Source of the DNA: Anaerolineae bacterium
GTDB taxonomy: Bacteria > Chloroflexota > Anaerolineae > Anaerolineales > Villigracilaceae
Direction of reading: 5' to 3'
Length of the DNA: 41,240 nucleotides
Assembly (NCBI GenBank): GCA_018645405.1
Contig: JABGOQ010000064.1
Coordinates: forward strand, 1 to 41,240
The notes beneath the pieces are model-generated. The model made no database searches, had not been told where the DNA came from, and saw nothing but the letters and a program-made list of their open reading frames with translations. The position numbers were made by a program, and so were the translations under genes. Below, in pieces: positions 1,374 to 18,211 of this stretch; the stretch's first letter is position 1; every line of letters begins with the position of its first letter.

Positions 1374-3562
1374 AAAAAAATCTATTAGACTATTTTATAT
1401 TGAATGCTAATAAGCCAGAATTACTCTCGATTTTTTTTGGGGGCATTATTTTAGCACTTTTTCTTTCAGGTATTATTTTCACGAAACGAAAGCTTGTTGG
1501 AAGACAGAGTTTTTTGTTTTTGGTTTCCGCCCTCCTATTTACCTACTTAATAGTTTTTCTCTATTCAATTCAAATAATACGTGAATCTAGAATAGTATTA
1601 TTTGCACTCTTTTTGGGAGGATCAGCTTCTGCAACATCGTTACTTTTTTTTTCATTGCATTATGCAGGTCAGCAGTATTGGCTAAAATTTTCAAATATTC
1701 TGTTTTTTTTCCTGGAACCAATATTTTTCACATATGTTATTTTGAACTTACCCGCAAATGCTTACACACTAGGGCAAATTTATCCCGGACCATCATCTCT
1801 GTTTTGGGCTTGGGATTATATTCATAATTTTTATATTATTATAATTTTATTGGCTGCTAGCGTTATTATTGCCCCAAGTATATTTTTAGGGATTGGTACC
1901 TTGCGGCGAAAAGTAATTGCTACATTAGGAGCAATTTTAGTTCCGATAGTTCCTATAGGGTTAGGGTTAGGTGCTCTTTTCGAACCTTTTTCTTTCCAGA
2001 TGTTTGCTTTTACCCTTAGCGGGTTAATTCTTAGCCTAACTTTATCCGAATCAAACTCTATTGACTTAATGCCTTTTTCGCGTAATCGCGTAGTGGAGCA
2101 AATGCGTGAAGGGTGGCTGCTTTTGGATAGCAAAAATCGTATTGTTGACGCAAATATATATGCTGAGAAAATACTAACTTTTTCAAAAAAGGAAGTCTAT
2201 GGAAAAGATGCCAACACAATTTTTTCTTCTTGGCCAAACATTATCAATTCCTTGATTGATGGCAAAGAAGCAGATTTCAAAACATCTTCTAATGCATACG
2301 GAGAAGTTTTATACTTGCATATTAGAATATCTCATATAAAAGATTCTATGGGATTAATGATAGGGTGGCAGATACTTCTAAGGGATTATACGGAAAGGCG
2401 TATAGCCGAATTGGCACGTCAGCAAGCACGAGATGAAATGTTTAGTCTACTACACTCAATTTCGGGTGCAGCCAGCCGTTCCGAAAATATGACTGAATTT
2501 ATTACAGCCTCGACATTTCAATTGGCATATTCTTTCGAAAGCCAAATAATAGCGATTTTTTTAAACGATGGAGAAACCAATGATGATCTTTTTTTGCTCG
2601 TTTCACACCAAGGAATCAAGGCTGAACACATAGAAAGCTTAGCTTTTCTTGACAAAAAAAATAAACTAGTTTCACAAATCCTTAAATCACGAACATCTCT
2701 TTTGGTAGGTGATATTCAAACCGATGCACGAATCCCACTTTTTCTTCGCAGAGTTTTTGTCGGAAGATTGCTCATGATTCCAATCATTACTGATGAAGAA
2801 TTTGTTGGTTTTATTCTTCTGACGCGTGAGAAGAAAACATATAGCAACGATGAAATTACTCGCCTTGAAATAGCGGCAGAACAGATTGGTGCCTTTGTAC
2901 AGAATGATCGTCGCCGAGATATTGCTAGCACTTTGGCTGAACGTCAACGATTAATTCGGGACTTACACGATTCTGTTACCCAACGCCTATACGCTCTTGT
3001 CATGACAACTGAAGCTGCCCAACTGGGCTTGAAATCTGGAAAACTGGCACAACCAGGAGATATAATCACGAAACTTGGTTTTCATGCTCGCCAGGCATTA
3101 AGAGAAATGCGTCTGTTTTTGCACAAACTTCAACCTATTGACCTTGCACGGGATGGATTTGCGGTTGTATTATTGCATCGCTTGGAGGCTGTTGAAGGTC
3201 GTGCTTGGCTGGAAAGAGAGTTAGATATTGATGAAGATATTGCCCTTGGACCTGAAGAAGAACTTGCTTTATTTTTTATTGCCCAAGAGGCATTGAATAA
3301 TATTATTAAACACGCTGATGCCAGTGCTATAAAAGTTAAATTCAAAAAAAACAGAGTTAATTATAGGCTTGAGATTAATGATAACGGTCATGGTTTTAAT
3401 TCTAAAAAAGTAAATCGATTTGGTCTTGGGCTGAAGAATATGCGTACGCGTGCAAAACAGATTGGAGCTAAAATAAGAGTAAGCTCGTCATCAGAAAATG
3501 GAACAAAAATTGTTGTACTAATTCGACATATAAAGTCAAAAAAGGGTGTAGGTGTAAAATGA
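1370..3562 (+). CDS. Membrane sensor histidine kinase (7TM-PAS-GAF-HisKA_3-HATPase), NarL/DegS type
   Basis: A 730-residue kinase. Residues ~12-225 hold about seven hydrophobic helices, resembling the histidine-kinase N-terminal 7TM region. A PAS domain follows at ~240-343, then a GAF domain at ~358-513. The dimerisation/phosphoacceptor helix of HisKA_3 type has the motif 'RDLHDSVTQRLY' near residue 530, where the His is the expected phosphorylation site. The HATPase has an N box around 'EALNNIIKHA' (~640) and a G box 'GLGLKNMRTRA' (~684). The gene is coupled by ATGA overlaps both to the TPR gene before it and to the response regulator after it, so the three form one operon. The signal is unknown; a membrane or cytosolic small ligand bound by 7TM, PAS or GAF is possible. 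Confidence 0.93.
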   Translation: MKKNLLDYFILNANKPELLSIFFGGIILALFLSGIIFTKRKLVGRQSFLFLVSALLFTYLIVFLYSIQIIRESRIVLFALFLGGSASATSLLFFSLHYAGQQYWLKFSNILFFFLEPIFFTYVILNLPANAYTLGQIYPGPSSLFWAWDYIHNFYIIIILLAASVIIAPSIFLGIGTLRRKVIATLGAILVPIVPIGLGLGALFEPFSFQMFAFTLSGLILSLTLSESNSIDLMPFSRNRVVEQMREGWLLLDSKNRIVDANIYAEKILTFSKKEVYGKDANTIFSSWPNIINSLIDGKEADFKTSSNAYGEVLYLHIRISHIKDSMGLMIGWQILLRDYTERRIAELARQQARDEMFSLLHSISGAASRSENMTEFITASTFQLAYSFESQIIAIFLNDGETNDDLFLLVSHQGIKAEHIESLAFLDKKNKLVSQILKSRTSLLVGDIQTDARIPLFLRRVFVGRLLMIPIITDEEFVGFILLTREKKTYSNDEITRLEIAAEQIGAFVQNDRRRDIASTLAERQRLIRDLHDSVTQRLYALVMTTEAAQLGLKSGKLAQPGDIITKLGFHARQALREMRLFLHKLQPIDLARDGFAVVLLHRLEAVEGRAWLERELDIDEDIALGPEEELALFFIAQEALNNIIKHADASAIKVKFKKNRVNYRLEINDNGHGFNSKKVNRFGLGLKNMRTRAKQIGAKIRVSSSSENGTKIVVLIRHIKSKKGVGVK

Positions 3563-4215
3563 AAACATCAATTAATGTTATCGTTGTGGAAGATCAGGCT
3601 GTAGTTAGACAAGGGCTAATAGCGATTCTATCTTATCGTGATGATATTGAAGTGGTTGGGGAGGCTGAAAATGGTGTCGAAGCTGTGAAGTTGGTTAAAA
3701 AACTCAAGCCCGATGTAATTCTTTTGGATTTGATTATGCCTGTTCAGGATGGATTGGAGACGATCCCTAAAATTTTGGAGATAGCACCGGCTTCTCGTAT
3801 TCTCGTTGTGACCGGATTTGGCGAAGCAGATAAGGTCTTTAACGCAATAAAATCAGGTGCGTTGGGATATTTGCTCAAAGATTCATCACATGAGAAACTG
3901 GTTAGTGCCATACATGATGTTTATCGAGGCAAGGCATTTATCCCACCTTCAATGGCATTGCGAATGATTCGTGAGATGGATGGCCTCTCTGCTTCCTCAG
4001 ATAAGCAGAGTCCATTAACAAAAAGAGAGTTGGAAACATTACGGTATATTGCACAAGGGTTAACAAATCTGGAAATTTCTAAAAAACTGGTTGTACATGA
4101 ACGTACGATTGCCAAATATGTGAGTAATATTCTCAGCAAATTACACTTGGCCAACCGTACGCAAGCTGCTTTATATGCATTGCGCACAGGGTTGTCAGAA
4201 CTTGATGAAGAATAA
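3559..4215 (+). CDS. NarL/FixJ family response regulator
   Basis: 218 residues. The N-terminal receiver has acidic residues E11/D12, the phosphoacceptor D57 in 'VILLDLIMP', and the conserved Lys in 'YLLKDSS' (~107). The C-terminal LuxR-type helix-turn-helix spans ~150-210 ('LTKRELETLRYIAQGLTN' then 'VHERTIAKYVSNILSKL'). It is the cognate partner of the HisKA_3 kinase, whose stop codon overlaps its start. It probably dimerises on phosphorylation and activates transcription. Targets are not visible; the promoter at 126-154 and the 380-bp region before the MraZ-like gene are the nearest candidates. A strong terminator follows 30 bp after the stop. Confidence 0.95.
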   Translation: MKTSINVIVVEDQAVVRQGLIAILSYRDDIEVVGEAENGVEAVKLVKKLKPDVILLDLIMPVQDGLETIPKILEIAPASRILVVTGFGEADKVFNAIKSGALGYLLKDSSHEKLVSAIHDVYRGKAFIPPSMALRMIREMDGLSASSDKQSPLTKRELETLRYIAQGLTNLEISKKLVVHERTIAKYVSNILSKLHLANRTQAALYALRTGLSELDEE

Positions 4216-4244: not shown

Positions 4245-4280
4245 AATGCTCTGGGACACATTCCAGAGCATTTTTTTTGC
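4245..4280 (+). terminator. Rho-independent terminator of the kinase/regulator operon
   Basis: A 10-bp perfect stem (AATGCTCTGG 4245-4254, CCAGAGCATT 4263-4272) with an 8-nt loop is followed directly by a run of T residues up to 4278. It separates the two-component operon from the MraZ/ATPase/TPR genes. Confidence 0.9.
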
Positions 4281-4539: not shown

Positions 4540-4568
4540 TTGGGATAAAGCCTGCTGCATCATATTTA
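4540..4568 (+). promoter_or_regulatory. Candidate promoter of the MraZ-like/ATPase/TPR gene run
   Basis: TTGGGA (4540-4545) and TATTTA (4563-4568) are separated by 17 bp and lie about 90 bp upstream of the MraZ-like start. Immediately downstream is a set of AAAGnGG-like repeats with roughly 10-bp phasing (next entry). The hexamers are imperfect, so confidence is moderate. Confidence 0.4.
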
Positions 4569-4570
4569 CA

Positions 4571-4596
4571 AAAGGGTACTAAAGTAAAAGTGGGCG
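4571..4596 (+). promoter_or_regulatory. Possible MraZ-box-like operator
   Basis: AAAGGG (4571), AAAGTA (4581) and AAAGTGGGC (4588) lie in near-helical phase (10 and 7 bp). MraZ proteins are known to autoregulate by binding short G-rich direct repeats with 10-bp period (TGGGN in E. coli, AAAGTGG in mollicutes). The match is degenerate, and the local MraZ-like protein has lost its usual DNA-contact Arg residues, so this is only a suggestion. Confidence 0.3.
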
Positions 4597-4659
4597 TTAC
4601 TATACTGACTTCACCAGCAAAGAAAATACGACGAGACGAAGTAAGGATAATCAGAGACT

Positions 4660-5100
4660 ATGTTTTATGGACAGTACACAATTCAGCTTGATCATGATAA
4701 AGCCCTCACTTTCCCTGAGTATTTTTCAGAAAAACTTTCTGGCAATGTTTTTATTACCAAGGGCATTGACCGCAACTTGGTCATCATGCCAGAAAATTCC
4801 TTTACGGAACTATATCAGCGTGTGATTAGTCTTAATATGGCAGAACCTTCAGCAAGGTTATTGCTTCGCTTATTTTTAGGAAATGCCATCCTTTCACAAC
4901 TAGACGGATTACAAAAAATGCAATTATCTGAACATTTATATGCCTATGCAGAGCTTTCAGATGAGAGCGCAGCTGTTTTAGTTGGCCAGGGAGATCACAT
5001 TGAAATTTGGTCACAAACTTATTGGGAGAAGCAGAATGTTGATTTGCAAGATGCGAGCATAAATGCACATCGTTTTGCTTCACTCGATTTACGGTTTTAG
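4660..5100 (+). CDS. Divergent MraZ-like protein (double SpoVT/AbrB fold)
   Basis: 146 residues, the usual MraZ length. Recognisable MraZ hallmarks are the start 'MFYGQYTIQLD', the stretch 'VFITKGIDRNLVIMPENSF', 'ARLLLRLFLGNA', and the end 'VGQGDHIEIWSQTYWEKQ'. MraZ is normally a ring-forming transcription repressor, the first gene of the division/cell-wall (dcw) cluster, followed by rsmH. Here neither rsmH nor fts genes are present; a P-loop ATPase follows 14 bp downstream. The two DxxGR DNA-binding signatures are degenerate: the first reads 'LDHDKALTF' (Arg replaced by Ala) and the second 'LDGLQKMQL' (Arg replaced by Lys). It may have altered specificity or a structural role. AAGGA 12 nt upstream supports the start. 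The fold call is firm; the function is not. Confidence 0.8.
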   Translation: MFYGQYTIQLDHDKALTFPEYFSEKLSGNVFITKGIDRNLVIMPENSFTELYQRVISLNMAEPSARLLLRLFLGNAILSQLDGLQKMQLSEHLYAYAELSDESAAVLVGQGDHIEIWSQTYWEKQNVDLQDASINAHRFASLDLRF

Positions 5101-5114
5101 AAGGAATGGACCCC

Positions 5115-6386
5115 ATGGACAAACTTCATTATGAACGTGCAAACGATTTTGACAGGGCTTGGCTTAACTTTGAATTGGATCTTCCTTTGCGACCAACCTC
5201 TGATGGAAAAGCGAATCCTTTTTATGTGAATCGCCCCGAAAATCCACTTTCAGAATTAAAGGATGCTCTATTAGCTCCGTTTTATAAACCTCCTAAATTT
5301 TTCTTTTCAGGACATCGAGGGTGTGGCAAATCAACAGAATTATTGCATCTATTAGGAGATCAAGAAATTCAAAAGAAATATTGGCCCATCAATTTCAGTA
5401 TCCGTCAGGATGCGGACATCATTGATCTGGATTTTCGAGATGTTTTGCTCGCTATTGGCGGACGCCTATTCCGTGAATATAGACAGGCCGGTGGGGAGTT
5501 GCCAGACCATCTACTCAAAGAACTTGATGGCTGGAAAGGAAAGATTGAGCAAGAGATTGAAACAATAAAAGAGGGACGCATTTCAACATCAATTGGAGCG
5601 GATGTAGATGCATTTTTTGTGAATGCAGGATTACGCATGAAATTGGAACCTGCAACACGAGTGGAGATCCGCCAGACTTTTGAGAAAGATATTACAGGAT
5701 TGATAGCGGTTATCAACGCGATTTCCTCTGCAATCTATGCCAAGGAAGGGCGATACCCCCTAGTCTTGATCGATGACTTGGATAAACCTGAATTAGAAAA
5801 AGCTCGCGCAATATTCCACGATCATCGCGAAATCATGACGCAACCGAGTTGCGCTATCGTTTATACGGTTTCTAGTGCTTTATTTTATAGCAAAGAGTTT
5901 GATGCTATTCGCGACCAGGCTATTTTCTTGCCAAACATCAATCTTTTTAGTCGATTTTATAACCGATTATCAGATGAAGACATTTCTCAGCCAGGGCATA
6001 GAACGCTCAAAAAGTTTATCGATTTACGTATGTCCTCTTCCCTGATTGATGGCAAAGCACTTCGTCTAGCAATAGAGTATAGCGGTGGTGTTTTTAGAGA
6101 AATGGCTCGTATTATGCGAACATCTATTGGGCGTGCTCGTCGCCGCAAAGCCTCGCTAATCGAGGTTGAAGATATTGAGTGGTCTGCAGCTGAGATTCGT
6201 AATGAATATCGCCGCATTCTTGATAGAGAAGATATCAAACTTTTGCGGCTAATTAACAAGACAAAACGATTGGAATATGTTGACCGCTTACGCCCTTTAT
6301 TACAATTATTAGCCATTCTTGAATATCGTGATGTTGATAATTGGTGTGATATTCACCCAGTCTTAAGGAAACTGATTGATGGGTAA
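5115..6386 (+). CDS. STAND/AAA-like P-loop ATPase
   Basis: 423 residues from ATG 5115. That start is chosen because AAGGA lies 9-10 nt upstream, whereas the earlier ATG at 5106 sits on the Shine-Dalgarno itself. The Walker A motif 'GHRGCGKST' is at residues ~66-74 and Walker B 'PLVLIDDLDKP' near 215-223. A C-terminal helical part includes an Arg-rich segment 'RTSIGRARRRKAS'. I recognise the general type: a single NTPase with a GHRGxGKST P-loop placed next to TPR genes in Chloroflexota and Cyanobacteria, related to STAND/NACHT-like switch ATPases, but I cannot assign a named family. The next gene overlaps its end by 8 bp, so ATPase and TPR protein are probably made and act together, like a STAND protein split into two chains. 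Confidence 0.8.
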   Translation: MDKLHYERANDFDRAWLNFELDLPLRPTSDGKANPFYVNRPENPLSELKDALLAPFYKPPKFFFSGHRGCGKSTELLHLLGDQEIQKKYWPINFSIRQDADIIDLDFRDVLLAIGGRLFREYRQAGGELPDHLLKELDGWKGKIEQEIETIKEGRISTSIGADVDAFFVNAGLRMKLEPATRVEIRQTFEKDITGLIAVINAISSAIYAKEGRYPLVLIDDLDKPELEKARAIFHDHREIMTQPSCAIVYTVSSALFYSKEFDAIRDQAIFLPNINLFSRFYNRLSDEDISQPGHRTLKKFIDLRMSSSLIDGKALRLAIEYSGGVFREMARIMRTSIGRARRRKASLIEVEDIEWSAAEIRNEYRRILDREDIKLLRLINKTKRLEYVDRLRPLLQLLAILEYRDVDNWCDIHPVLRKLIDG

Positions 6387-8523
6387 ACAACCTATAGCCT
6401 CAGCGTCTTTTAAAATGCACTTAGATAAACTCTCCAAAGAGATCAATCTATCTTCACGCTGGGGAAAACCTTCAATATTATTGGCAGTATATGAAAATAC
6501 TTTTGATGGTGCCAAGGCTGTCTCTAATCTGGAAGCACGCCTGACGCGGCAAGGACAATATGTTTGTCATATCACACCAGATATTGAAGGAAAGAACACC
6601 ATTATTGATGAAGTCACGCGCAATAAGCATTGGGGCGAGACAGTTTTCTTTGTTATGCACTTGGGTCGCAGCACAGAAGAAAATATCTACGATACGCTGA
6701 ATGCGCATAGTGATTTTTTTATCAACAATCAGATTCGTGTTGTTTATTGGCTAACAAAACAAGATTTAATTTCTTATGTTCAGAACTTATCTGAGCATTG
6801 GTTTGCTCAACACAAGCTCATTGAACTTTCGGCTTCTGGGTGGGAGCATGTTTTGCCTCACTTGGTAAAACGAACTTGGCGAAATTTTGAGCATATCGAA
6901 TCAAAACAAAGTCAAAAATTGGAAGATATTCCTCTAACCGAATTGCTTTCTTTGGATATCCGTGATGATCTGGATGGTTTACTTAAACGTGTTCAGATTC
7001 TTATTAAGCTAGGTATCTTCTATTTTCGCCAAAAAGATTATGCACAGTCATTAGAGTTTTTGGGTAAGGCAGTAGAAATTGCAGAAATTATAGAAAATGA
7101 AGGATTTTCTATTGCAAGTAATGTTGCATTTGCATTAGTTCAAACGGAATTAGATCAATATGAAGGTGCGGTTTCAATCCAAGCGAAAATCGCATCAGCT
7201 TATCCCAAGAGCAATGATGTTTGGAACAATCTTGGCAACCTATATTTTGCCCTTTTCATGTTCGACGAAGCATTTTTAGCATATCAATCTGCACTTTCGA
7301 TTTCTCGTGAAAACCCCATTAGCTGGCAAGGCCTTGGCGAAGTCTATTTACAATTTGGACAACTCGATAAGGCAACTGAAGCTCTCCATAAATCGGTTCA
7401 GGTGGCACCTAATTTTGCCTGTGCCTGGAAAGGGCTGGGAAAGGCTTATACAACCGCTGGCAATCGTCCCAAAGCCGTAGAAGCGTATACAAAATCTCTT
7501 GAGATTGATTATCGACAATCTGATGTTTGGCTTGAGGTGGGGCGCCTTGCAGAGGATGATATTGCGCAACGAGCTCTCCAATATGCACTTGAATTGGATC
7601 AAACAAAAGCATTTGCGTGGAACTTGCTTGGCAATATTTATTATCGCTCTGAAAACTTTAATAAAGCTATTAGAGCCTATTACAAAGCAATTCAACTCAA
7701 AAAAGATTTCGGTTGGCCCTATGCCAATATGGCACTGATCTATACCGACCGAAAGCAATATGAAAATGCAATTCTGCTCTATATCAAAAGCAGCCATCTT
7801 TTTCAAAATAATCTCGAAAAATCCAATGTCTTGTACAAGCAGGGAAATGCTTATCGTGACTCAGGGAAATATAGTAATGCTATAGGGCTATATCGAGAAG
7901 CCGCAAAACTTAATCGAGGAGGCAGTTTGTTGGATAAAAATCTTCTTGCCCCAGGTCCATTTAGGGATTGGGATTCAGCCTCTGTGGACGATAAGAATCC
8001 TCCCGTGGAAGACAAACGTGACGAGGAACTTGCTGAGGAGACTGAAACATCTGCCCCAATTCAACTTAATACCGATGCACAATTGAAAAAATCCACTAAA
8101 AATGCCATGCTACGTAAAATCTTGTCGACAAATAAAAAAGCCGCCAAAGTGAACTATTGGTTGGAGCTTGGCTCACATTATGTGCGCAGCCGGATGTACG
8201 AATTTGCAGAAGATGCATTCATGATTGCGGCTGAACTTGACCCTCATAATGGATGGACTTATTACAACTTGGCACTGGCAAATACGGTCAATGGACTCTA
8301 TAAGGATGCAGTTCCTCTATACGAAAAAAGCATCCGTTTGTTTGATGAAAGAAAGGATAAAGCTTTGTCATGGAATCAATTGGGAAATGTTTATCGTCGG
8401 CTGAACGAACCTTCTTTAGCAGTAGCAGCTTACGAGAACGCGCGCGTCCTTGATCCTCCTCCAAAATCCTCGATCGTTTCTCGTGCCCGATTGAGCTTGA
8501 TGAGTAATTGCTATGCAAAATAA
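6379..8523 (+). CDS. Large TPR protein, partner of the ATPase
   Basis: 714 residues from ATG 6379; AAGGA is 10 nt upstream, and an in-frame TTG just before it is not needed. Residues 1-150 match the N-terminal domain of the 186-1373 protein ('DTLNAHSDFF', 'RVVYWLTKQD', 'LSEHWFAQHKLIEL'). Residues ~205-515 are a continuous TPR superhelix with many 'W..LGN.Y' and 'A...Y.KAL' helices. A polar, acidic linker follows at ~515-590. Residues ~590-705 form a separate three-TPR cassette ('YWLELGSHYV', 'SIRLFDERKDKALSWNQLGNVYRRL') that recurs in the next two genes. TPR arrays mediate protein-protein binding, so it is a plausible scaffold for the ATPase. The 8-bp overlap with the ATPase gene implies coupled translation. 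Confidence 0.85.
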   Translation: MGKQPIASASFKMHLDKLSKEINLSSRWGKPSILLAVYENTFDGAKAVSNLEARLTRQGQYVCHITPDIEGKNTIIDEVTRNKHWGETVFFVMHLGRSTEENIYDTLNAHSDFFINNQIRVVYWLTKQDLISYVQNLSEHWFAQHKLIELSASGWEHVLPHLVKRTWRNFEHIESKQSQKLEDIPLTELLSLDIRDDLDGLLKRVQILIKLGIFYFRQKDYAQSLEFLGKAVEIAEIIENEGFSIASNVAFALVQTELDQYEGAVSIQAKIASAYPKSNDVWNNLGNLYFALFMFDEAFLAYQSALSISRENPISWQGLGEVYLQFGQLDKATEALHKSVQVAPNFACAWKGLGKAYTTAGNRPKAVEAYTKSLEIDYRQSDVWLEVGRLAEDDIAQRALQYALELDQTKAFAWNLLGNIYYRSENFNKAIRAYYKAIQLKKDFGWPYANMALIYTDRKQYENAILLYIKSSHLFQNNLEKSNVLYKQGNAYRDSGKYSNAIGLYREAAKLNRGGSLLDKNLLAPGPFRDWDSASVDDKNPPVEDKRDEELAEETETSAPIQLNTDAQLKKSTKNAMLRKILSTNKKAAKVNYWLELGSHYVRSRMYEFAEDAFMIAAELDPHNGWTYYNLALANTVNGLYKDAVPLYEKSIRLFDERKDKALSWNQLGNVYRRLNEPSLAVAAYENARVLDPPPKSSIVSRARLSLMSNCYAK

Positions 8524-8671
8524 AAGACCTCTACAAAAACGTGGAAATATCAGCCTTTATCAGGGGCTATATAAAGAAATTCTGAACGCCTATCGTGAAT
8601 TTGTTGCGGTAGATGTTAACTTTGGGTGCTCATTTGTAAAGTTTGCAATATACCCAGAAGGGAGTTTATGA
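8513..8671 (+). CDS. Possible small ORF (52 residues) coupled to the TPR gene
   Basis: An open frame begins at ATG 8513, overlapping the last 11 bp of the large TPR gene, and ends at TGA 8669-8671. The product would start MQNKRPLQKRG and is basic at the N-terminus with a hydrophobic C-terminal half ('VDVNFGCSFVKFAIYP'). It resembles no family I know. Its start overlap and its stop overlapping the next small ORF would fit a coupled chain, but a chance ORF in a 226-bp intergenic gap is as likely. Confidence 0.25.
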   Translation: MQNKRPLQKRGNISLYQGLYKEILNAYREFVAVDVNFGCSFVKFAIYPEGSL

Positions 8672-8757
8672 AAAAACAATATACCTATGTAAACGAGCGT
8701 TCAGTCTGTTTAGTCAACAACAAAATTTGTTTTAGAAAAGGAGATAAAAATGAGTGA
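8668..8757 (+). CDS. Possible 29-residue leader-like ORF before the acidic TPR gene
   Basis: ATG 8668 lies 5 nt after a good GAAGGGAG ribosome-binding site and overlaps the previous small ORF's stop. The frame runs 29 codons (MKKQYTYVNERSV...) and ends at TGA 8755-8757, inside the start region of the gene at 8750. Its ribosomes would pass over that gene's Shine-Dalgarno, so it could act as a leader peptide. There is no direct evidence of expression. Confidence 0.25.
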   Translation: MKKQYTYVNERSVCLVNNKICFRKGDKNE

Positions 8758-10687
8758 GCACCAACTGTGGAACGAACTAGGAAATATTTATATTAATTCA
8801 GGAGCGTTTGAACAAGCGATCAAGGCTTATGATAAAGCGATTGAATCTGATGCTGAATTTGGCTGGGCTTATAACAACAAAGCTTTGGCTTATATGCGTC
8901 TGGGTGAATCTGAGAAATCGATTCCCCTTTATCAAAGAAGCATTGAGTTGCTAAGTGATTTTAGAGACAAAGCGATTGCATGGCATCGTTTGGGCAATTC
9001 ATATCAGGTGATGGATGATACCAAGAATGCGATTCTTGCCTTCCAACGTGCCGTAGATTTGGATTTAGATAATACCGTTTACCGGAATGATCTGGCTGTT
9101 GCGATGGCTGAATATACCTATGAGACAGATGAAGAGCAGGAAGAAGCTGAGGCGGTAGAAATTGCCGATGATGTTCCTCTAGCAGAGGAAGCTGATATAG
9201 TGGAAGCAACCCCTGAGGTTGAGATCGAAGATGTCCTCGAAGAAGCTGAAGTAAGCTCCGAAGTCGAAGAAGAGGATTCTACCGAAATAACGGAAGAGAT
9301 CCCCGATGTCGAAGAGGAAGGTGTCTCCATGAAAAGTGATTTCGCATCTTGGCTTGAGCAAACCATTGAAAAACTTAGTAATAAGTCTTTTGAGAAAAAA
9401 ACTGCTGCTTTTGAAGATGTGCCAATCGTTTTCCCTGAAGGCGTCGCCCCAGAGGATGTTGTTGCTGAGTTAATGGCTGTGGTTGAAGAGCACGCAAGAG
9501 AAGCAGAGCCTGTTCTTGAAGAAGAAGTTGATTCTGAACTCGAGCAAGAAATTGCGGATGAGAGCGAAGAGAAAGTTGAAGCTGTTGCTCAAGATGAATC
9601 TGAGCCAGAAATTCTGGAGGAGATCGAGCCAATTGTGGAAGATGAACTCGAAGCTGTTGCAGAAGCAGAATCAGAAGACGCAGATGAGTCTGTAGAAAAA
9701 ATATTGCCTACAGAAGCAATAGCTGAGGTTGTAGAAGAAGTTCAAGAAGCAGACGATGCTCTTGAAGAGCAAAAAATTGAAGAGGAAAAAATCCCTCCTG
9801 TGCCGGCTGCAATAGCTAAAGATCTTATTCCTCTTTTGGACAGCGTCGAAGACGAAGAATTGGATGCCAATGTTGATAATCTGATGAATGAGTTGTCAAA
9901 AGAAATAGACCTCGCCGAAGATGAAGAGGTTGACGATGAGATTGATCAGGCTGCATTATTGATGATGGAAGATGATGAGATCGAAGATGAAGTGTTTGAT
10001 GAGAAAGATCTTGAAGAAGACTTTGAAGATGAAGCCGAATTCGAGCCTGTCGCATTAGACGAGGAAGAAATCGAAGAAGAAGGCTTTGAAGACGAAGTTG
10101 AAGAAGATGAACTCGACCTTGAAGGCGATGAAGACGAAGATGAGGATGACAAAGAAGATGAACGCATCCTTTTCGAACTCAAAAAAGAAGAAGCAACAGC
10201 CGCTCTCTTGTCAGCCGAAGAATTCTTCGCCAGCAATGACCAAAAAGGCTCTGGAAACGGAAATGGCAACGGCAATGGAAATGGAAATGGCAACGGCAAA
10301 GACTTTAGCCTGAGCACCGCCAAGGTCTGGGGAGAATTGGGCAACGTCTTCTTCTCGGTAGGCGTTTTTGACGGCGCGCTTTTTGCCTACGAAAAAGCCA
10401 TCGATCTGGATTCTGACTCTGGTTTGATTTTGAATAACCTGGCCTTGCTGCACGTTCGCAATGGAAAGTATCTTCAGGCTGTTGAGCTATGCCGCAAAAG
10501 TATTGATCTTCTCGACGATAGTGCCTCTCAGGCAGTTTCCTGGAATAATCTGGGCAATACCTATCGTGTGCTGAAAGAATATGATCAGGCAGAGAAAGCC
10601 TACCGCAAAGCCGATGAGTTGGATACAGGAAACATCACAGTAGAAAACTGGACGCGCTACGGTTTGCTAAACACCCAAAATTCATAG
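8750..10687 (+). CDS. TPR protein with long acidic linker and Gly-Asn tract
   Basis: 645 residues, preceded by a strong AAAAGGAGA Shine-Dalgarno. Residues 1-125 are a three-TPR cassette. Residues ~126-490 are an extremely Glu/Asp-rich, probably disordered segment, broken by a few non-acidic patches such as 'MKSDFASWLEQTIEKLSNKSFEKK' near 190-215 and 'AIAKDLIPLLDSV' near 355, which could be short binding motifs. A (Gly-Asn)7 tract lies near residues 502-516. Residues ~525-640 are a second three-TPR cassette. The first residues MSEHxxWNE(L/I)G are shared with the downstream ParB fusion, so the two genes are duplicates in part. The acidic linker could mimic nucleic acid or keep two TPR heads apart; both ideas are inference. 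Confidence 0.85.
   Translation: MSEHQLWNELGNIYINSGAFEQAIKAYDKAIESDAEFGWAYNNKALAYMRLGESEKSIPLYQRSIELLSDFRDKAIAWHRLGNSYQVMDDTKNAILAFQRAVDLDLDNTVYRNDLAVAMAEYTYETDEEQEEAEAVEIADDVPLAEEADIVEATPEVEIEDVLEEAEVSSEVEEEDSTEITEEIPDVEEEGVSMKSDFASWLEQTIEKLSNKSFEKKTAAFEDVPIVFPEGVAPEDVVAELMAVVEEHAREAEPVLEEEVDSELEQEIADESEEKVEAVAQDESEPEILEEIEPIVEDELEAVAEAESEDADESVEKILPTEAIAEVVEEVQEADDALEEQKIEEEKIPPVPAAIAKDLIPLLDSVEDEELDANVDNLMNELSKEIDLAEDEEVDDEIDQAALLMMEDDEIEDEVFDEKDLEEDFEDEAEFEPVALDEEEIEEEGFEDEVEEDELDLEGDEDEDEDDKEDERILFELKKEEATAALLSAEEFFASNDQKGSGNGNGNGNGNGNGNGKDFSLSTAKVWGELGNVFFSVGVFDGALFAYEKAIDLDSDSGLILNNLALLHVRNGKYLQAVELCRKSIDLLDDSASQAVSWNNLGNTYRVLKEYDQAEKAYRKADELDTGNITVENWTRYGLLNTQNS
10253..10300 (+). repeat. 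Hexanucleotide-type repeat encoding Gly-Asn
   Basis: Eight consecutive GGN-AAN units inside the acidic TPR gene encode seven Gly-Asn pairs and a final Gly-Lys. Codons alternate between GGA/GGC and AAT/AAC, so the DNA repeat is imperfect. It marks the boundary between the acidic segment and the C-terminal TPR cassette, and copy number may vary between strains. Confidence 0.85.
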
Positions 10688-10707
10688 CATAAAAAAGAGA
10701 GACGCCA

Positions 10708-12810
10708 ATGAGTGAACATATCATCTGGAACGAGATAGGCACCCTGCATTTTAATGCGGGTGCTTATACTCAAGCATCAAAAGCATATCAGCGCGCCATA
10801 GAATTGGGCGAAGATTTTAACACCGCCATGCAGAACTTGGCTTTGACCTATGTGCAAGAAGGAGAGTTAGCTAAAGCCGTTCCAATTTACAAAGAAGCCC
10901 TCGAGCTTATCTCTGAAAACAAAGACAAAGCCGCCCTCTGGTATCAGCTTGGCGAGATTTATGAGCAATTAGAAGATCACGAAAATGCTCTCTATGCAAC
11001 CAAAATAGCTGCTGAGCTAGAAAGAAATCAGGATGAATCTCTCGAGCAAGATTTGCCTTCGCAACCTTCCCCCGTTTCAGTTTTGGATCTTGCCGAGGAA
11101 ATAATCGGAGACACCGAACCTCTCAATCCAGAAGAACTTCAAAATGTGGATGAAGAGCCGACTCCGCCCGAGGACGAGGAACTTGCTACCGTTAAAACGG
11201 CAGATTCCCATCCTGCAGAGGGGCGGCTCTATCATCTGAATATTGAGCAGATTTTCGCTAACCCGGTTCAGCCTCGTCTGCGTGTAAATGTCCAAGACCT
11301 TGTCGAATCTATTCGTGAATACGGCATCATCCAGCCGTTAATCGTCACTCCTTGTGATGAAGAGCCTCATCGCTATATTCTCGTTTCTGGTGAGAGACGT
11401 CTACAAGCAGCGCGCCAGGTTGGGCTGAATACAGTTCCTGCAATCGTTCGTAAAATTAGCGAACACCAACGCCTGGAAATAGCTCTGGTAGAAAATGTAC
11501 AGCGGCAGAATCTCTCATTGCTGGAACAAGCAGATGCCTATGCTCAACTGAAAAACGAATTTGGTTTATCTTCTGACCAGATTGCCAAGCGGATGGGCAA
11601 AAGCAGTGTTGCAATAAGCAATTTGCTTCGGCTACTAGAGTTACCAGAAAAGATAAAGCGTGCGCTCGATTCAAATCGGATTAACGAAGAGCATGCACGC
11701 GCTTTGTTTTTGCTGAAAGATCAAAAAATGCAGACAAAAATATTAGACCGCATTTTAATTGAAGATCTATCTGTGCGTAAAACAGAAGGGTTGGTCCGTA
11801 AATTGCTCGTTCAGGTTCTTGAAGATAGCAATCAGCCTGATCCTGAAGTAGACGAACCTGTGTTTGTGGAAGAAGTTATCAAGTCAGATTTAGATACAGC
11901 AGCTTTGGCAGAAGTTGCTGAGGATATGGAGGAGAGCGTCATAGAAACAGAAGTTGTGGCGCTTACCCCCATACCTGATGATGAAGATTTGGAAGAAGAT
12001 AATGATGAGCAAGCTGTAGAATTGGATGCCGTAGAAGAAGCTGTTTCACTTGACGACAACCAAGAGCAGCCCAAAGATTCTCTCCCGGAAGATGAAGCTC
12101 CAGAAATCGCACCCGAAGATTTAGAAGAGGATTTGGCGGAGGATACCCTGCCAATCCCCTCATTGCCGCAGACGGCTAATTTTGAATCCCATGAAGCAGT
12201 TCTAACAGAGGAGCAGATGCGCAGTAGACTTGGTGCTTTCAAACGAGTTACCGAAGTTAACCCCAAAAACGATAAAGCCTGGAGTAAATTAGGCAAATAT
12301 TATTTCCATTTGGATGAAAAAGAAAGTGCCATTGAAGCGTATTTAGAAGCAATTCATCTTGCCCCAAATATCTTTGATTATCATCATGAACTGGGGCAAG
12401 TTTATATCTCCCTGCGTCAATTTGATAATGCGGCCATAGAATTGGAAAAAGTTGTAGCACTCAACGATAAAAATATTATTGCGCATTGCATATTGGCGAG
12501 CACTTACCGCCATTTGGAAATGGATGAAAAAGCGCAAGAGCATATAGACCTGGTTGCACCAGTTATCGAGTATGAAAAAATCTATAACCAAGCCTGCTTC
12601 GAAGCAATTTGTGGCAATGTAGTTCGCTCGGTTGAATTGTTGCGCACGGCCTTAGATCAAGAGCAAACGAGTATTGAGCAAATTCAGAGCGATGCCGATT
12701 TTGATTTTATTCGCGATGAGCCAATATTCGCTGAGCTGGTGAGCAAAACTGAAACGGTCTTTGGTGATCTAGTGCATGATCAGGAAGTGCTTTCAGTAGT
12801 GGAGCAATAG
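10708..12810 (+). CDS. ParB-like CTPase/HTH protein flanked by TPR modules
   Basis: 700 residues. Residues 1-110 are a three-TPR cassette (MSEHIIWNEIG start as in the preceding gene), followed by an acidic linker. Residues ~170-290 are a ParB N-terminal domain: 'NPVQPR' near 185, the C-motif-like GERR segment 'LVSGERRLQAARQVG' (~226-240) and 'ALVENVQRQNLSLLEQADAY' (~258-277). The ParB HTH follows ('SSDQIAKRMGKSSVAISNLLRLLELP', ~288-313). A second acidic linker covers ~390-490 and another TPR block ~510-640. Classical ParB ends in a dimerisation domain and is paired with ParA and parS; here TPRs replace that domain and no parA is nearby. The box residues for CTP binding look intact. It probably binds DNA and recruits partners through TPRs. 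No parS-like 16-mer was recognised in the window. Confidence 0.9.
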   Translation: MSEHIIWNEIGTLHFNAGAYTQASKAYQRAIELGEDFNTAMQNLALTYVQEGELAKAVPIYKEALELISENKDKAALWYQLGEIYEQLEDHENALYATKIAAELERNQDESLEQDLPSQPSPVSVLDLAEEIIGDTEPLNPEELQNVDEEPTPPEDEELATVKTADSHPAEGRLYHLNIEQIFANPVQPRLRVNVQDLVESIREYGIIQPLIVTPCDEEPHRYILVSGERRLQAARQVGLNTVPAIVRKISEHQRLEIALVENVQRQNLSLLEQADAYAQLKNEFGLSSDQIAKRMGKSSVAISNLLRLLELPEKIKRALDSNRINEEHARALFLLKDQKMQTKILDRILIEDLSVRKTEGLVRKLLVQVLEDSNQPDPEVDEPVFVEEVIKSDLDTAALAEVAEDMEESVIETEVVALTPIPDDEDLEEDNDEQAVELDAVEEAVSLDDNQEQPKDSLPEDEAPEIAPEDLEEDLAEDTLPIPSLPQTANFESHEAVLTEEQMRSRLGAFKRVTEVNPKNDKAWSKLGKYYFHLDEKESAIEAYLEAIHLAPNIFDYHHELGQVYISLRQFDNAAIELEKVVALNDKNIIAHCILASTYRHLEMDEKAQEHIDLVAPVIEYEKIYNQACFEAICGNVVRSVELLRTALDQEQTSIEQIQSDADFDFIRDEPIFAELVSKTETVFGDLVHDQEVLSVVEQ

Positions 12811-12832
12811 ACTAGAGTTGTCCCTGAATAGC

Positions 12833-12930
12833 AGAAACTCGGTTTTTCTTTTTCTCTCAAGATCTTTTTGGTCAAATATCGTTAGTTTTCGTACAAATGC
12901 TATATGCAGATAATAAAAAAACGAGTTTCT
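12833..12930. repeat. Inverted repeat with ~70-nt loop
   Basis: AGAAACTCGGTTTT (12833-12846) pairs with AAAAAACGAGTTTCT (12916-12930), with one bulged G. It could form a large hairpin in the 3' end of the ParB-TPR transcript or be a relic of a small mobile repeat. Function unknown. Confidence 0.45.
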
Positions 12931-13014
12931 TGACTCTTAGATTTGTTTGAGAATAACTCTATATAATTGATAAGCTCAAAACCCTCTGAGATTGCATTGC
13001 AAAATATTGTGGAA

Positions 13015-13066
13015 CATCCCCAAAGAATATAAGAAGTAGATATCATATTCTTTGGGGATGCTTTTT
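13015..13066 (+). terminator. Strong terminator after the TPR/ParB genes
   Basis: A perfect 16-bp stem (13015-13030 with 13045-13060), 14-nt loop, followed by CTTTTTCTT. It ends transcription of the MraZ-ATPase-TPR-ParB run. The reverse side lacks a T run, so it is mainly a + strand terminator. Confidence 0.9.
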
Positions 13067-13104
13067 CTTACGATGTGTCACTAAAAAAATAAGCGAGCTA
13101 TTAT

Positions 13105-13692
13105 TTACTCAATAGCTTCTTTGCGATCTAGCCATAACTCACGGTACTGCCTGTTCCAATCCACAGTGAAGCGAAAGGCGATCACTACTGCGGCGGCAAT
13201 TAGCACCCATAGCTCAAGCCCTCGAAATTGGAGTGCCCACAGCAAAAAGGGGGCAAGTAACGCAGCAATTAGTGTAGCACGCGCTGCATGGCGGATGATT
13301 AACACAAGAAGAATCAGCAAGGCAAGAACGCTCAACATTGCCGGGAGAGAAGCTGCAAGCATTGCTCCGCCTGCTACAGCGAGTCCCATTCCACCACGGA
13401 AGTTGGCGAAGATGGGCCAACAGTGTCCGATTACGACGAGAGCAGCGACAATGGCCACCGACCAAGCCGGATGTCCCGCGCGCATCGCAAGCCAGGTGGG
13501 GAGAAAACCTTTGGAGATGTCGAGAATCAAAACGGCGAATCCTGCTCCAAATCCCGCTTGTCTAATTGTATTGGTCGCACCAACGTGACCAGAGCCACCA
13601 TCTCGTACATCAATATTTTTGACGAGACGTGTAATCCACAAAGCAAAGGGGAGCGAACCTGCAAGATATGCTAAAGCCCAATAGAAAACCAT
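13105..13692 (-). CDS. PlsY-like acyl-phosphate:glycerol-3-phosphate acyltransferase
   Basis: 195 residues with five or more hydrophobic helices. PlsY transfers the acyl group from acyl-phosphate to glycerol-3-phosphate at the inner face of the membrane, the first step of phospholipid synthesis. Motif 1 is 'GSGHVGATNTIRQAG', motif 2 'DISKGFLPTWLA', motif 3 'GHCWPIFANFRGGMGLA'. In canonical PlsY the last reads FxGGKGxA, so Lys is replaced by Met here, and motif 1 has His for Asn. The enzyme may be a divergent paralogue rather than the housekeeping PlsY. It lies alone on the - strand and is transcribed from the symmetric promoter it shares with the ECF operon. Confidence 0.85.
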   Translation of the reverse strand: MVFYWALAYLAGSLPFALWITRLVKNIDVRDGGSGHVGATNTIRQAGFGAGFAVLILDISKGFLPTWLAMRAGHPAWSVAIVAALVVIGHCWPIFANFRGGMGLAVAGGAMLAASLPAMLSVLALLILLVLIIRHAARATLIAALLAPFLLWALQFRGLELWVLIAAAVVIAFRFTVDWNRQYRELWLDRKEAIE

Positions 13693-13745
13693 GATAATTC
13701 TCCTGAAATAAGGAAACTTTTTAGAGTTAGTAGTGTTTTTAATGT

Positions 13746-13769
13746 AGAACTTATATTATAATAAGTTCT
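13746..13769. promoter_or_regulatory. Symmetric divergent promoter/operator between plsY-like gene and ECF operon
   Basis: AGAACTTAT (13746-13754) and ATAAGTTCT (13761-13769) form a perfect 9-bp inverted repeat around 6 bp. A TATAAT -10 box lies inside it on the + strand (13757-13762) for the ECF operon and on the - strand (13755-13760) for the plsY-like gene. A dimeric repressor bound to the palindrome would cover both -10 boxes. Good -35 boxes were not found, so the promoter assignment is moderate; the palindrome itself is certain. Confidence 0.6.
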
Positions 13770-13798
13770 GTTCTAATAAAATACAAGCTGGATCATTT

Positions 13799-15430
13799 AT
13801 GACAAATTCTGTTGATGCACTTCCTCTTGAAATTACGAACTTAAATTTTACCTATCGTATTCGTACGACCCCCGCGATTAACAATATCAATTTATCTATT
13901 AAATCCGGTGAGCTGATGCTCGTTGCTGGGGCTAGTGGTAGTGGAAAAACGACGCTAATGCGTTGTATTAATGGGTTAATTCCACGCAGCTATAGAGGGG
14001 TGCTTGAGGGTGAAATTAAACTTTTCGGAACGCCAATTACAGAGATGGAGATGTCCGATCTTTCGCAACAAGTGGGGACTTTATTGCAAGATCCGGAGCG
14101 TCAGATTGTTTCGAGCCATGTGATGAACGAAGTTGCTTTTGGTTTAGAGAATTTGGCTTGGGAACGCGAGAGAATTATTGAACGGGTAGATGAAACTTTA
14201 GATTTTCTAAATATTTCCTTTTTGAGAGATCGAGAAACTTTTACCCTTTCTGGTGGAGAACGCCAAAAGGTTGCCTTAGCGGGGATTTTGGCAATGCACC
14301 CCAAAGTATTGATTCTCGATGAGCCTCTTGCCAGCTTAGATCCAGCCTCTGCCCGTGAAGCATTGGAACTGTTTCGAAGGTTGGCTGATGATGGGATTTC
14401 TATTATGCTCGTGGAACATCGCGTGGACGAAGTTCTGGGCATTAAACCCGATAGTGTTTTTTATCTTGACGAGGGTAGAGAAATTTACAGTGGCAATCCC
14501 GCAGGTTTGATGGATACCGCAGATTATCATCGCATTAAACTTCCCGCAAAGGTAATTCTCGAACGGGCTAAAAAAGATGAGCCAATTAGTTTTGATCCCG
14601 TGATCAAGAAATTATCGAAGATTAAGCAAGAAGATAAATTGCTTGAATTTAAAGATGTCACCTTTAGCTATGATTCATCTTTACCAGATGTTTTGCATAA
14701 TATTAGCTTTGATATTAATAAAGGCGACGTGATTGCTGTTTTGGGGCATAATGGTGCAGGCAAATCAACTTTGGTCAAGCATGCGCTGGGTTTATTAAAA
14801 CCAACTGAAGGCGATGTCCTTTTGCAAGGGCTATCCTCGAAAGAAGATACCGTCGCGCATGCCGCAGAAACAGTGGGCTATGTTTTTCAAAGTCCCGGCC
14901 ATATGCTTTTTGCGCCAACTGTAGAAGAAGAATTATCTTTTGGTCCTGAAAACCTAAAATTTGCAGAAGAAATTATTAAAGAAAATGTAGATTGGGCGAT
15001 AAAAACAGTTAATCTCGAAGAATATGCGGATTCTCCACCTTTGGCATTATCCTATGGACAGCAAAAACGAGTGAGTATTGCCGCAATTTTATCCATGCGT
15101 TCTCGAGTTCTTGTTATGGACGAGCCAACCGCTGGGCAGGATTATTGGAATTATCGTTCTTTTATGGATTCCATTCTTGAAATGCCCGGGTTTGATTCTA
15201 TCGTTTTTATTACCCATGATGTTGATTTAGCCGTTGTGTACGCTAATCGTATTCTCTTGCTCTCTGATGGTAAAGTAATGGCAGATGGTAGCCCGCAAGA
15301 AGTTTTGGGTGATGAAGAAGCCCTCAAGGCTTGCAGAGTTCTGCCCACATCTTTGCTTGAAATTAACCAAGAACGTTTTTCCCAAACAGGTCGTTTTATG
15401 CGCGCTGAGGAATTAGCTCACGTGCTTTAA
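13799..15430 (+). CDS. ECF transporter fused double ATPase (EcfA-EcfA')
   Basis: 543 residues with two complete ABC ATPase domains in one chain. Domain 1 has Walker A 'GASGSGKTT' (~42-50), signature 'LSGGERQKVALAG' (~150) and Walker B 'VLILDEPLASLDP'. Domain 2 has Walker A 'GHNGAGKST' (~317-325), signature 'LSYGQQKRVSIAA' (~417) and Walker B 'VLVMDEPTAGQD'. In energy-coupling factor importers two such ATPases drive a T component and a vitamin- or metal-specific S component; both follow directly here. The fused double ATPase with separate S and T genes resembles the YkoEDC-type layout. The ligand is unknown: no TPP, FMN or cobalamin riboswitch was recognised upstream. The ribosome-binding site is weak. 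Confidence 0.93.
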   Translation: MTNSVDALPLEITNLNFTYRIRTTPAINNINLSIKSGELMLVAGASGSGKTTLMRCINGLIPRSYRGVLEGEIKLFGTPITEMEMSDLSQQVGTLLQDPERQIVSSHVMNEVAFGLENLAWERERIIERVDETLDFLNISFLRDRETFTLSGGERQKVALAGILAMHPKVLILDEPLASLDPASAREALELFRRLADDGISIMLVEHRVDEVLGIKPDSVFYLDEGREIYSGNPAGLMDTADYHRIKLPAKVILERAKKDEPISFDPVIKKLSKIKQEDKLLEFKDVTFSYDSSLPDVLHNISFDINKGDVIAVLGHNGAGKSTLVKHALGLLKPTEGDVLLQGLSSKEDTVAHAAETVGYVFQSPGHMLFAPTVEEELSFGPENLKFAEEIIKENVDWAIKTVNLEEYADSPPLALSYGQQKRVSIAAILSMRSRVLVMDEPTAGQDYWNYRSFMDSILEMPGFDSIVFITHDVDLAVVYANRILLLSDGKVMADGSPQEVLGDEEALKACRVLPTSLLEINQERFSQTGRFMRAEELAHVL

Positions 15431-15434
15431 TCCG

Positions 15435-15463
15435 AACACGGTCCTATTTGAAAAAACCGTGTT
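15435..15463 (+). promoter_or_regulatory. Intercistronic hairpin between ecfA and ecfS
   Basis: AACACGGT (15435-15442) pairs with ACCGTGTT (15456-15463) across a 13-nt loop, followed by an AT-rich stretch with ATTTTATT and a later T run. It resembles a weak terminator or attenuator that could lower or tune expression of the downstream S and T genes. It lies 33 nt before the chosen S-component start. Confidence 0.5.
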
Positions 15464-15495
15464 ATTTTATTCACTTTTTTCACGAGGAGATAATA

Positions 15496-16041: not shown

Positions 16042-16054
16042 CTAGGAAGATTTA

Positions 16055-16086
16055 ATAGGAGGAGAGTGGAGACACTCTCCTCCTAT
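16055..16086 (+). promoter_or_regulatory. GAGA-loop hairpin between ecfS and ecfT
   Basis: A perfect 14-bp stem (16055-16068 with 16073-16086) closed by a GAGA tetraloop. The 5' arm contains AGGAGGAG, a perfect Shine-Dalgarno buried in the stem and followed by no nearby start codon. No T run follows, so it is unlikely to terminate. It probably protects or separates the S and T messages. Confidence 0.6.
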
Positions 16087-16114
16087 ACTCCCGTTTTGTC
16101 GCTCTGGTGAAATT

Positions 16115-16996: not shown

Positions 16997-17006
16997 AAAT
17001 AAACTT

Positions 17007-17047
17007 AGAATCAAAAAAGCCAGATTTTATCTGGCTTTTTTGATTCT
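17007..17047. terminator. Terminator of the ECF operon, possibly bidirectional
   Basis: A perfect 19-bp stem (17007-17025 and 17029-17047) with a TTT loop. The stem includes A6 on one side and T6 on the other, as in bidirectional terminators, so it may also stop transcripts of the converging terC-like gene. Confidence 0.9.
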
Positions 17048-17177
17048 CGAACCTATATGCTTATTTCAAAAATAAAAACTTTGTGCTTCTTCGTGTGACT
17101 TTTGCGTAGCATCCCGATTGTATTTGAGGAACGTGGATTCTTTAAAACAAATGTACAAATTATTTAATTCTTATCCT

Positions 17178-17957: not shown

Positions 17958-17985
17958 ATATGAGCCTCCGAGAAATTAAATAATA

Positions 17986-18036: not shown

Positions 18037-18211
18037 TTTTACCCGATAAAATCTGAAATTTGATAGCTTTTGAGACCTTCTGCTAGAATATAGGATGTAT
18101 TTTTACTCCACGATTTGTAGTGAAAACGTGAAATTTGATGTGTGAATTTTAAATCACCCTTCATGCATCAAAAAACCTCGTCTGACTTCGTAGACAAAAA
18201 AGGAACCAATT

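Follow-up and report, generated by a model that had tools for sequence, protein, structure and literature searches.

A conserved Anaerolineales-type locus with a putative split STAND-like switch, a diverged MraZ and exchangeable output genes

STAND NTPases are built as a single chain, in which an effector is followed by the NTPase, a winged helix and repeats. Nucleoside triphosphate (NTP)-dependent systems with variable effectors have been reported from multicellular prokaryotes, including chloroflexi (Kaur et al., 2020; PMC7159879, in part), and ParB-type proteins can serve as cytidine triphosphate (CTP)-dependent gene regulators (PMC10770331 and PMC11790492, both in part). Here we analyse a gene cluster in contig JABGOQ010000064.1 of the Anaerolineae bacterium assembly GCA_018645405.1 (the window, 41,240 nucleotides (nt); contig C63 of a genome bin of 3.9 Mb in 208 contigs), where genes for an MraZ-like protein, a P-loop ATPase, tetratricopeptide repeat (TPR) proteins and a ParB-TPR fusion stand behind those of a two-component system. 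A named system of this composition was not found in the open-licence literature, as the original prediction from the DNA alone had supposed. We put at about 45% the probability that the cluster encodes a split STAND-like switch under two-component control, together with exchangeable outputs, an MraZ in a new role and TPR proteins as scaffold.

Layout and conservation of the locus

The scan, by ATPase alignment and two peptide patterns, covered 84,980 species genomes, and the best 80 of 96 confirmed stretches were used. L127, L153 and L204 were left out (>95% identical), so that 77 loci remained, 51 with an ATPase at least 60% identical to that of the window and 26 below this level. Locus genes were called greedily as the longest open reading frames (ORFs) and include some false frames. 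Each denominator is set by the flank required, and absence of ParB, Mrr or GH25 was judged inside the available flank.

In the group with at least 60% identity, MraZ is found upstream of the ATPase in all 41 loci with 2.6 kb of flank and in 46 of 48 with 0.7 kb; the exceptions, L147 and L166, carry a GH25 gene in that position, after which the sequence ends. A histidine kinase gene lies upstream in 29/33 loci, a response regulator gene in 30/33, and a gene for a TPR protein with a characteristic N-terminal domain (hereafter N-domain) in 30/32. A second N-domain/TPR gene directly follows the ATPase gene in 48 of the 50 loci (misses L130 and L185). Below 60% ATPase identity the counts are 0/21 for MraZ, 0/15 for the kinase and 18/24 for the downstream N-domain. 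The MraZ-bearing rows of the ATPase tree form one side of a branch (52 of 76 rows; Shimodaira–Hasegawa-like approximate likelihood-ratio test (SH-aLRT) 100), and the gene set is maintained across ATPase identities of about 61–86%.

The gene order of the window is the same in L184, and recurs with one extra TPR gene in L126 and with a masked gap within the acidic TPR gene in L128. The last of these (83%) is a named carrier, Candidatus Desulfolinea nitratireducens of the order Anaerolineales. Since the order recurs in these other contigs, a misassembly is unlikely, and a chance run is ruled out by the counts for MraZ (41/41) and the downstream N-domain (48/50). Adjacency in relatives had been named beforehand as the check on the original prediction, with scattered genes as the outcome that would count against it; adjacency is kept, and the genes are therefore not scattered.

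From these comparisons the cluster is a conserved two-unit locus of Anaerolineales-type Chloroflexota. Unit A is predicted to consist of an N-domain/TPR protein, a seven-transmembrane (7TM) histidine kinase and a NarL-type regulator, and unit B of an MraZ paralogue, the ATPase, its N-domain/TPR partner, a TPR scaffold and an output protein. Contigs titled Gammaproteobacteria (L127), Gallionella (L135), Deltaproteobacteria (L154) and Bacteroidia (L160) also hold an Anaerolineales-type cluster and are probably mis-binned. The features in the window are as follows.

186–1373, + strand: N-domain and TPR protein, first gene of the two-component unit (A4 profile match at 192–689)
1370–3562, + strand: histidine kinase with 7TM (HisKA_7TM), PAS, GAF, HisKA_3 and HATPase_c domains (Pfam)
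3559–4215, + strand: NarL/LuxR-type response regulator (Pfam, NCBIfam)
4245–4277, + strand: intrinsic terminator behind the two-component unit (12-pair stem at 4245–4272, T-run)
4660–5100, + strand: MraZ-like protein, cluster-dedicated paralogue, DxKGR motif lost (Pfam MraZ, 1.4e-15)
5106–6386, + strand: P-loop ATPase, AAA_16/STAND-like (Walker A GHRGCGKST, Walker B LIDDLDK, GGVFRE; below all family cut-offs)
6376–8523, + strand: N-domain (residues ~1–175) and TPR partner of the ATPase (TPR6; TPR cassette twice)
8750–10687, + strand: TPR, acidic linker, TPR protein (isoelectric point 4.05)
10708–12810, + strand: ParB-TPR protein with TPR cassette, ParB_N, HTH_ParB, acidic linker and TPR (Pfam, PDB matches)
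11227–11502, + strand: ParB_N (CTPase-fold) domain (Box II GERR and Box III ENVQR kept)
11506–11805, + strand: ParB helix-turn-helix (HTH) domain (S/L/E/E at positions 173/179/184/201)
13015–13060, + strand: inverted-repeat terminator ending the operon (stems 13015–13030 and 13045–13060)

Five genes on the + strand, from MraZ to ParB-TPR, had been predicted as one run between 4540 and 13066, and they have the order and span then given. The unit itself is larger and takes in the two-component genes (186–4215), whose first gene is of the same N-domain/TPR type as TPR6, a likeness that had also been recognized. The gaps between MraZ, ATPase, TPR6, acidic TPR and ParB-TPR genes measure 5, -11, 226 and 20 nt, so that the tight spacing claimed for the first part of the run is borne out. 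The start of TPR6 was called at a TTG (6376), with an ATG close behind at 6379.

TPR matches in the window proteins are far above the Pfam cut-off. A triple-TPR cassette of ~105 residues is present in two copies each in TPR6 and the acidic protein and in one copy at the ParB-TPR N-terminus (27–43% identical), which agrees with the three-protein cassette first noticed. The linker of the acidic protein has 405 residues, 39.8% of them D or E. Two terminators (4245–4277 and 13015–13060) bracket the operon. The second, also expected, has a stem trailed by CTTTTTCTT; its loop is 14, and a consensus terminator scan with a loop limit of 8 did not list it. Rfam and tRNA scans of the window gave no match. 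Elsewhere in the window an amidohydrolase-like gene on the minus strand (23470–25074) appears by eye as two ORFs (24397–25074 and 23470–24294) and is possibly broken.

The ATPase pair and its putative alternative output genes

The ATPase residues G69, G72, G74, K75, D224 and D226 are invariant in an alignment of 70 rows. No Pfam family matches the window ATPase above its cut-off, and the search against PDB gave no match below E 0.02. The N-domain had a best PDB match of E 0.032, and Pfam and NCBIfam gave scattered matches in a few members. Its hallmark, near the majority consensus, is VVFWLT..E...LA..APDFW..RHRVVEF, with one tryptophan invariant in 57 rows.

In the class as a whole the ATPase (E 1e-5) was found in 60 and the N-domain in 40 of 249 genomes. 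Of 49 N-domain matches, 42 follow a same-strand ATPase match at a distance of 5–889 nt, and the seven unpaired ones include the upstream N-domain gene of the window's genome and that of genome G027. The proposal of a switch ATPase and a TPR partner on separate chains is supported, this pair being the most widely kept part of the locus. The pair was also seen in 10 of 11 archaea-titled loci; the contig of the eleventh stops 306 nt past the ATPase. These carriers are of Methanosarcinales, Methanoperedens, Methanophagales and ANME-2 type and include the isolate Methanococcoides alaskense. In seven archaeal loci no other cluster gene was seen near the pair, and by eye the neighbours look metabolic. 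Loci L192 and L193 have two neighbour genes in common. In L193, and in this locus only, MoxR-like and DUF58-like genes (by eye; 16367–18321) lie ~4 kb behind the pair. A frame of 1478 residues was noted in L050. This distribution points to an older core that is made up of two genes, a STAND/AAA-like ATPase and its N-domain/TPR partner, and that occurs by itself in methane-cycle archaea and other Chloroflexota.

Around this pair the putative output genes differ. A ParB domain is present in 13 of the 51 loci, an Mrr-like nuclease gene in 14 and a GH25 muramidase gene in 8, and no locus holds two of the three. The Mrr gene is found ahead of the upstream N-domain gene (3–47 nt in 13 loci and 304 nt in one). 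The GH25 gene immediately precedes that of the ATPase and in six loci visibly follows MraZ. Of two Mrr genes searched against Pfam, both had Mrr_cat above cut-off and one had Mrr_N. G027, outside the 51, has an Mrr gene and no ParB in its cluster. With at least 8.5 kb upstream and 7.5 kb downstream available, 25 loci divide into 7 with ParB, 12 with Mrr, 4 with GH25 and 2 with none. The exclusion of ParB against Mrr and GH25 in these has a Fisher p of 7.5e-5, and this p value and the exclusion counts are not from independent events because the accessory labels track clades. ParB is present in several deep cluster lineages besides that of the window, and the simplest history would be an early ParB that was lost where Mrr or GH25 came in, repeated gain being the alternative.

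Several observations were made around these genes. An Mrr-type gene lies directly upstream of the N-domain/kinase unit at L151:3522–4373, L031:15726–16622 and in 13 further loci, and a Y1 (IS200-like) transposase-type gene stands upstream of the Mrr gene in 12 of 14 loci. The GH25 protein at L164:8830–9981 carries SH3 domains, with no obvious signal peptide at its start. A family of membrane-type proteins (~444 residues) is encoded downstream in 7 of the 8 GH25 loci.

The MraZ and ParB domains

For comparison a canonical MraZ set (n = 30) was made up of the 29 best class matches with a locus and the genome's own second MraZ, chosen by likeness. This second copy is found at C51, beside genes that look by eye like those of the dcw cluster; the window MraZ is not beside rsmH or dcw genes and neighbours the ATPase and regulator instead. 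A single branch (SH-aLRT 94) parts 48 cluster MraZ proteins from the 30 of the canonical group in a tree whose inner forks are poorly resolved because its 79 rows are compared over 145 columns. L143 has a second MraZ outside its cluster, which groups with the canonical copies, and a cluster MraZ was also found in G027. In L143 (10901–14945) the cluster adjoins dcw-type genes, with the canonical mraZ followed by rsmH-, ftsL- and ftsI-like genes (by eye).

The window protein has two MraZ domains, and W115, W120 and E113 are kept in 48/48 cluster and 30/30 canonical sequences. R15, which we take to be a DNA contact, is present in 30/30 canonical vs 21/48 cluster proteins, and K13 in 29/30 vs 9/48. 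Positions 13/14/15 of the window protein are D/K/A, so that it lacks the DxKGR motif. Within 450 nt upstream, a triple GTGG repeat occurs in 20 of the 30 canonical and none of the 48 cluster genes. A TGGG triple (6/30 vs 0/48) and a GTGGG pair (8/30 vs 0/48) are distributed likewise, these being raw counts with no shuffled control. The GTGG repeat of the canonical genes agrees with the published MraZ site (AAAGTGKN3)3 (PMC5282649, in part). The cluster MraZ is a dedicated paralogue that has diverged from classical MraZ, with an eroded DNA-contact motif and without MraZ boxes.

ParB was compared in the same way, with a canonical set of the 19 best class matches, the genome's own and two or three from loci, again chosen by likeness. 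The genome's other ParB is encoded at C197, beside a ParA-like gene (by eye). In the window ParB-TPR protein, Pfam places ParB_N (1e-23) and HTH_ParB (1.5e-29) within a TPR protein, and PDB matches are to Noc (3.3e-39) and Spo0J (2.7e-37). The best NCBIfam match is also Noc (2.3e-57), at 194.3 bits against the cut-off of 315 for TIGR04285 and thus below it. The 15 cluster ParB domains come from 14 loci, one of which has two, and a single branch (95/95) separates them from 23 canonical-group domains; these include the distant, very long-branched ParB of L198.

The motif LG[RK]GL, described as ParA-binding (PMC12704722, in part), was found in 22/22 canonical and 0/15 cluster ParBs. R173 and G201 are given as absolutely conserved in ParB orthologues, and Q173, K179, K184 and R201 as the Noc residues (PMC7383237, in part). 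In our alignment position 173 is R in 23/23 canonical-group vs 0/15 cluster domains and position 201 is G in 22/23 vs 2/15, and the S/L/E/E of the window fits neither the ParB nor the Noc pattern. The window and the five relatives nearest to it (6 domains) have kept CTP Boxes II and III intact; one or both are altered in all 9 other cluster ParB domains, several of which align poorly in the HTH. The host protein varies as well. It is the last protein of the cluster in the window lineage and L140, the middle TPR protein in L160, L165, L167, L168, L170 and L180, and the N-domain protein in L158 and L140. L140 thus has two ParB domains in neighbouring TPR proteins (11253–16637), with Boxes II/III changed differently. 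A ParB profile search of the cluster proteins of the other loci gave no further ParB domain. The cluster ParB domain is of single origin, with altered DNA-reading residues and, in the window lineage, intact nucleotide motifs.

No ParA was found among the eight cluster proteins of the window, the other neighbours being judged by eye. Canonical parS was tried as a site at the locus and rejected (3 window matches, at 3 mismatches, against an expected 1.52). Two parS-like sites with one mismatch each lie 72 bp apart in another contig of the same genome (G000:C203:9298–9313 and 9370–9385), away from the window.

Possible functions and related systems

A working mechanism can be outlined from the gene content. 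The kinase and regulator would sense a condition and set expression, and the ATPase and its TPR partner might jointly form a split STAND-type NTP switch. The repeated TPR cassettes could hold the proteins together, and the MraZ oligomer may act as an adaptor or as a regulator with a new target. The switched complex would then release or load the exchangeable output, which in the window may be a CTP-gated ParB clamp put on DNA at a non-parS site without ParA. More tentatively, this would be a new kind of regulated machine. A split switch, present as a pair in both Chloroflexota and methane-cycle archaea, might in one bacterial clade have been wired to two further parts, a two-component system and an MraZ oligomer released from its former DNA site; its exchangeable output would be a muramidase, an Mrr nuclease or a ParA-free CTP clamp.

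A number of results count against the working mechanism. The ATPase had been called STAND-like, and the Walker motifs are present, but its family matches are sub-threshold: at E ≤ 1, AAA_14 was matched by 52 and AAA_16 by 48 of 70 members, with a best value of 1.2e-6. A kinship of the N-domain with the ATPase found no support, the profile comparison being not significant (probability 0.9%). The ParB-TPR protein predicted for the run is present in the window, but across loci the ParB domain is optional, sits in differing proteins and has altered nucleotide motifs outside the window lineage; with at least 7.5 kb downstream it is present in 10 and absent from 25 of 35 loci and therefore not core. 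No palindrome that could be a ParB-TPR site is common to at least three of the loci of six relatives. The accessory labels change 13 times on the ATPase tree vs 45.5 times when shuffled. The MraZ tree is built from few columns relative to its rows, and the cluster rows L149 and L157 adjoin the canonical branch. Unit A is also variable. In L129, a member of the window's own lineage, no kinase, regulator or upstream N-domain gene lies within 9.99 kb; both kinase and regulator are missing from L149 and L180, and the kinase from L168. Six loci (L160, L165, L167, L168, L170 and L180) have their upstream N-domain gene on the other strand.

If the more tentative reading holds, MraZ and ParB would have left division and segregation to become components of a complex for signalling or immunity. 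ATPase and sensor halves would be separate proteins in a defined, conserved gene set, so that each could be purified and tested alone, and both an MraZ freed from its dcw role and the loading of a ParB clamp without ParA and parS would become testable. A single core that carries a clamp in some lineages and a nuclease or muramidase in others would amount to a natural experiment on what the switch controls.

The same parts could instead make up an anti-phage or other conflict system, a reading that we regard as unlikely while giving it real weight. A TPR-guarded STAND-type sensor switch would fire an exchangeable effector, which could be an Mrr-type nuclease, a GH25 of endolysin type or a ParB clamp that acts on invading DNA, and the two-component genes would control expression. 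Its patchy spread would suit such a role. A close ATPase (E 1e-50) was found in 3 of 61 genomes of the order, the window's own included, and in 2 of 13 of the family, where a third genome, G164, has a distant match only. In G027 the cluster is at 2.40 Mb and a plsY-like gene at 0.92 Mb, ~1.5 Mb apart, and L184, a close relative, has plsY-, TerC- and 18212-type neighbours in common with the window. (The names plsY, TerC, priA, gyrA, rsmH, ftsL, ftsI and ParA come from reading the sequences by eye.) Because of the patchy spread and differing neighbours, the block is accessory and sits at different points of the genome, with transfer and repeated loss as alternative explanations. Exchangeable outputs are likewise what a conflict system would have, and variable-effector NTP-dependent systems are reported in chloroflexi (PMC7159879, in part).

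Defence-library matches bear on this reading from both sides. Of 242 flank genes 138 were chosen and 124 of these scanned, with no control flanks. PADLOC found PDC-S02, a candidate model, in 12 (best 7.4e-33), mad8 in 5, mad3 in 3 and others in 1–2, among them DndA/SspA and AriA in 2; two Mrr proteins scanned singly also matched PDC-S02 (6.9e-24 and 9.5e-19). The genes behind the Band_7 gene, tried as the source of the mad8 matches, gave no match. Among seven of the eight cluster proteins (the regulator was left out), the TPR proteins matched TPR-bearing models (TPR, C3a198, PDC-M71B, PrimPol) and ParB-TPR also MTase_II at 4e-4, but kinase, MraZ and ATPase had no match. Most of the 25 commonest Pfam families in the 124 flank proteins are metabolic, Mrr_cat (12/124) excepted. 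To our knowledge, a 7TM PAS/GAF kinase together with MraZ would be unusual in a defence locus, which counts against it as well.

We find it improbable that the locus is a checkpoint of cell cycle or envelope, which would couple an external signal to division and nucleoid state through MraZ, a ParB/Noc-like clamp and a muramidase. MraZ, the ParB that matches Noc below cut-off and the GH25 of 8/51 loci do belong to division and wall biology, the cluster of L143 adjoins mraZ-rsmH-ftsL-ftsI-like genes, and in L161 and L197 a canonical parB lies 8–9 kb downstream. Yet this MraZ has neither DNA motif nor boxes, ParB is altered or absent in most lineages, with a nuclease gene instead in 14/51 loci, and a close ATPase is missing from most sampled relatives. 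Plain transcription control seems very unlikely: ParB-TPR and MraZ would bind DNA to regulate a local regulon, in the manner of VirB or KorB, which are related to ParB, and the TPR and ATPase proteins would only modulate them. CTP-dependent regulators of ParB type do exist (PMC10770331 and PMC11790492, in part), and altered recognition residues would fit a new operator; against this, the loci of the six relatives share no operator-like palindrome, and the enzymes found where ParB is missing suggest an output and not a regulator. That the genes are mere neighbours, unrelated and kept together by happenstance, is hardly credible in view of the MraZ (41/41) and N-domain (48/50) adjacency and a set kept over about 61–86% ATPase identity.

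Returning to the two-component-controlled split switch, the locus can be set beside the systems that it most resembles. As in STAND NTPases and AAA_16-type ATPases, there is a P-loop ATPase with Walker A and an IDDLD Walker B, with TPRs in the partner; unlike them, ATPase and putative TPR sensor are two proteins, an unnamed N-domain sits on the TPR chain, and the window ATPase falls beneath every Pfam cut-off. The MraZ shares two domains, equal length and invariant residues with that of the dcw cluster, but is on a separate branch and has lost the DNA-contact motif and the boxes. With ParABS and Noc the window ParB shares ParB_N, HTH_ParB and intact CTP Boxes II and III; it differs in having no ParA seen adjoining and no LG[RK]GL, in S/E at 173/201 in place of the R/G of ParB or the Q/R of Noc (PMC7383237, in part), and in the TPRs that flank it on both sides. 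The ParB-CTPase fold fusions of Kaljevic et al. (2025; PMC12704722, in part) similarly have a ParB fold joined to another domain and no parAB pair, but neither TPR nor tetratricopeptide appears in the main text of that paper. A central NTPase with several conserved partners and variable effectors is also the plan of the vWA-MoxR ternary and iSTAND conflict systems (Kaur et al., 2020; PMC7159879, in part), but the eight window proteins have no MoxR or vWA match, and the main text of that source mentions neither MraZ nor ParB. The parts thus come from known families, yet none of these families is matched in every respect, and we therefore class the locus with NTP-switch systems that have variable outputs.

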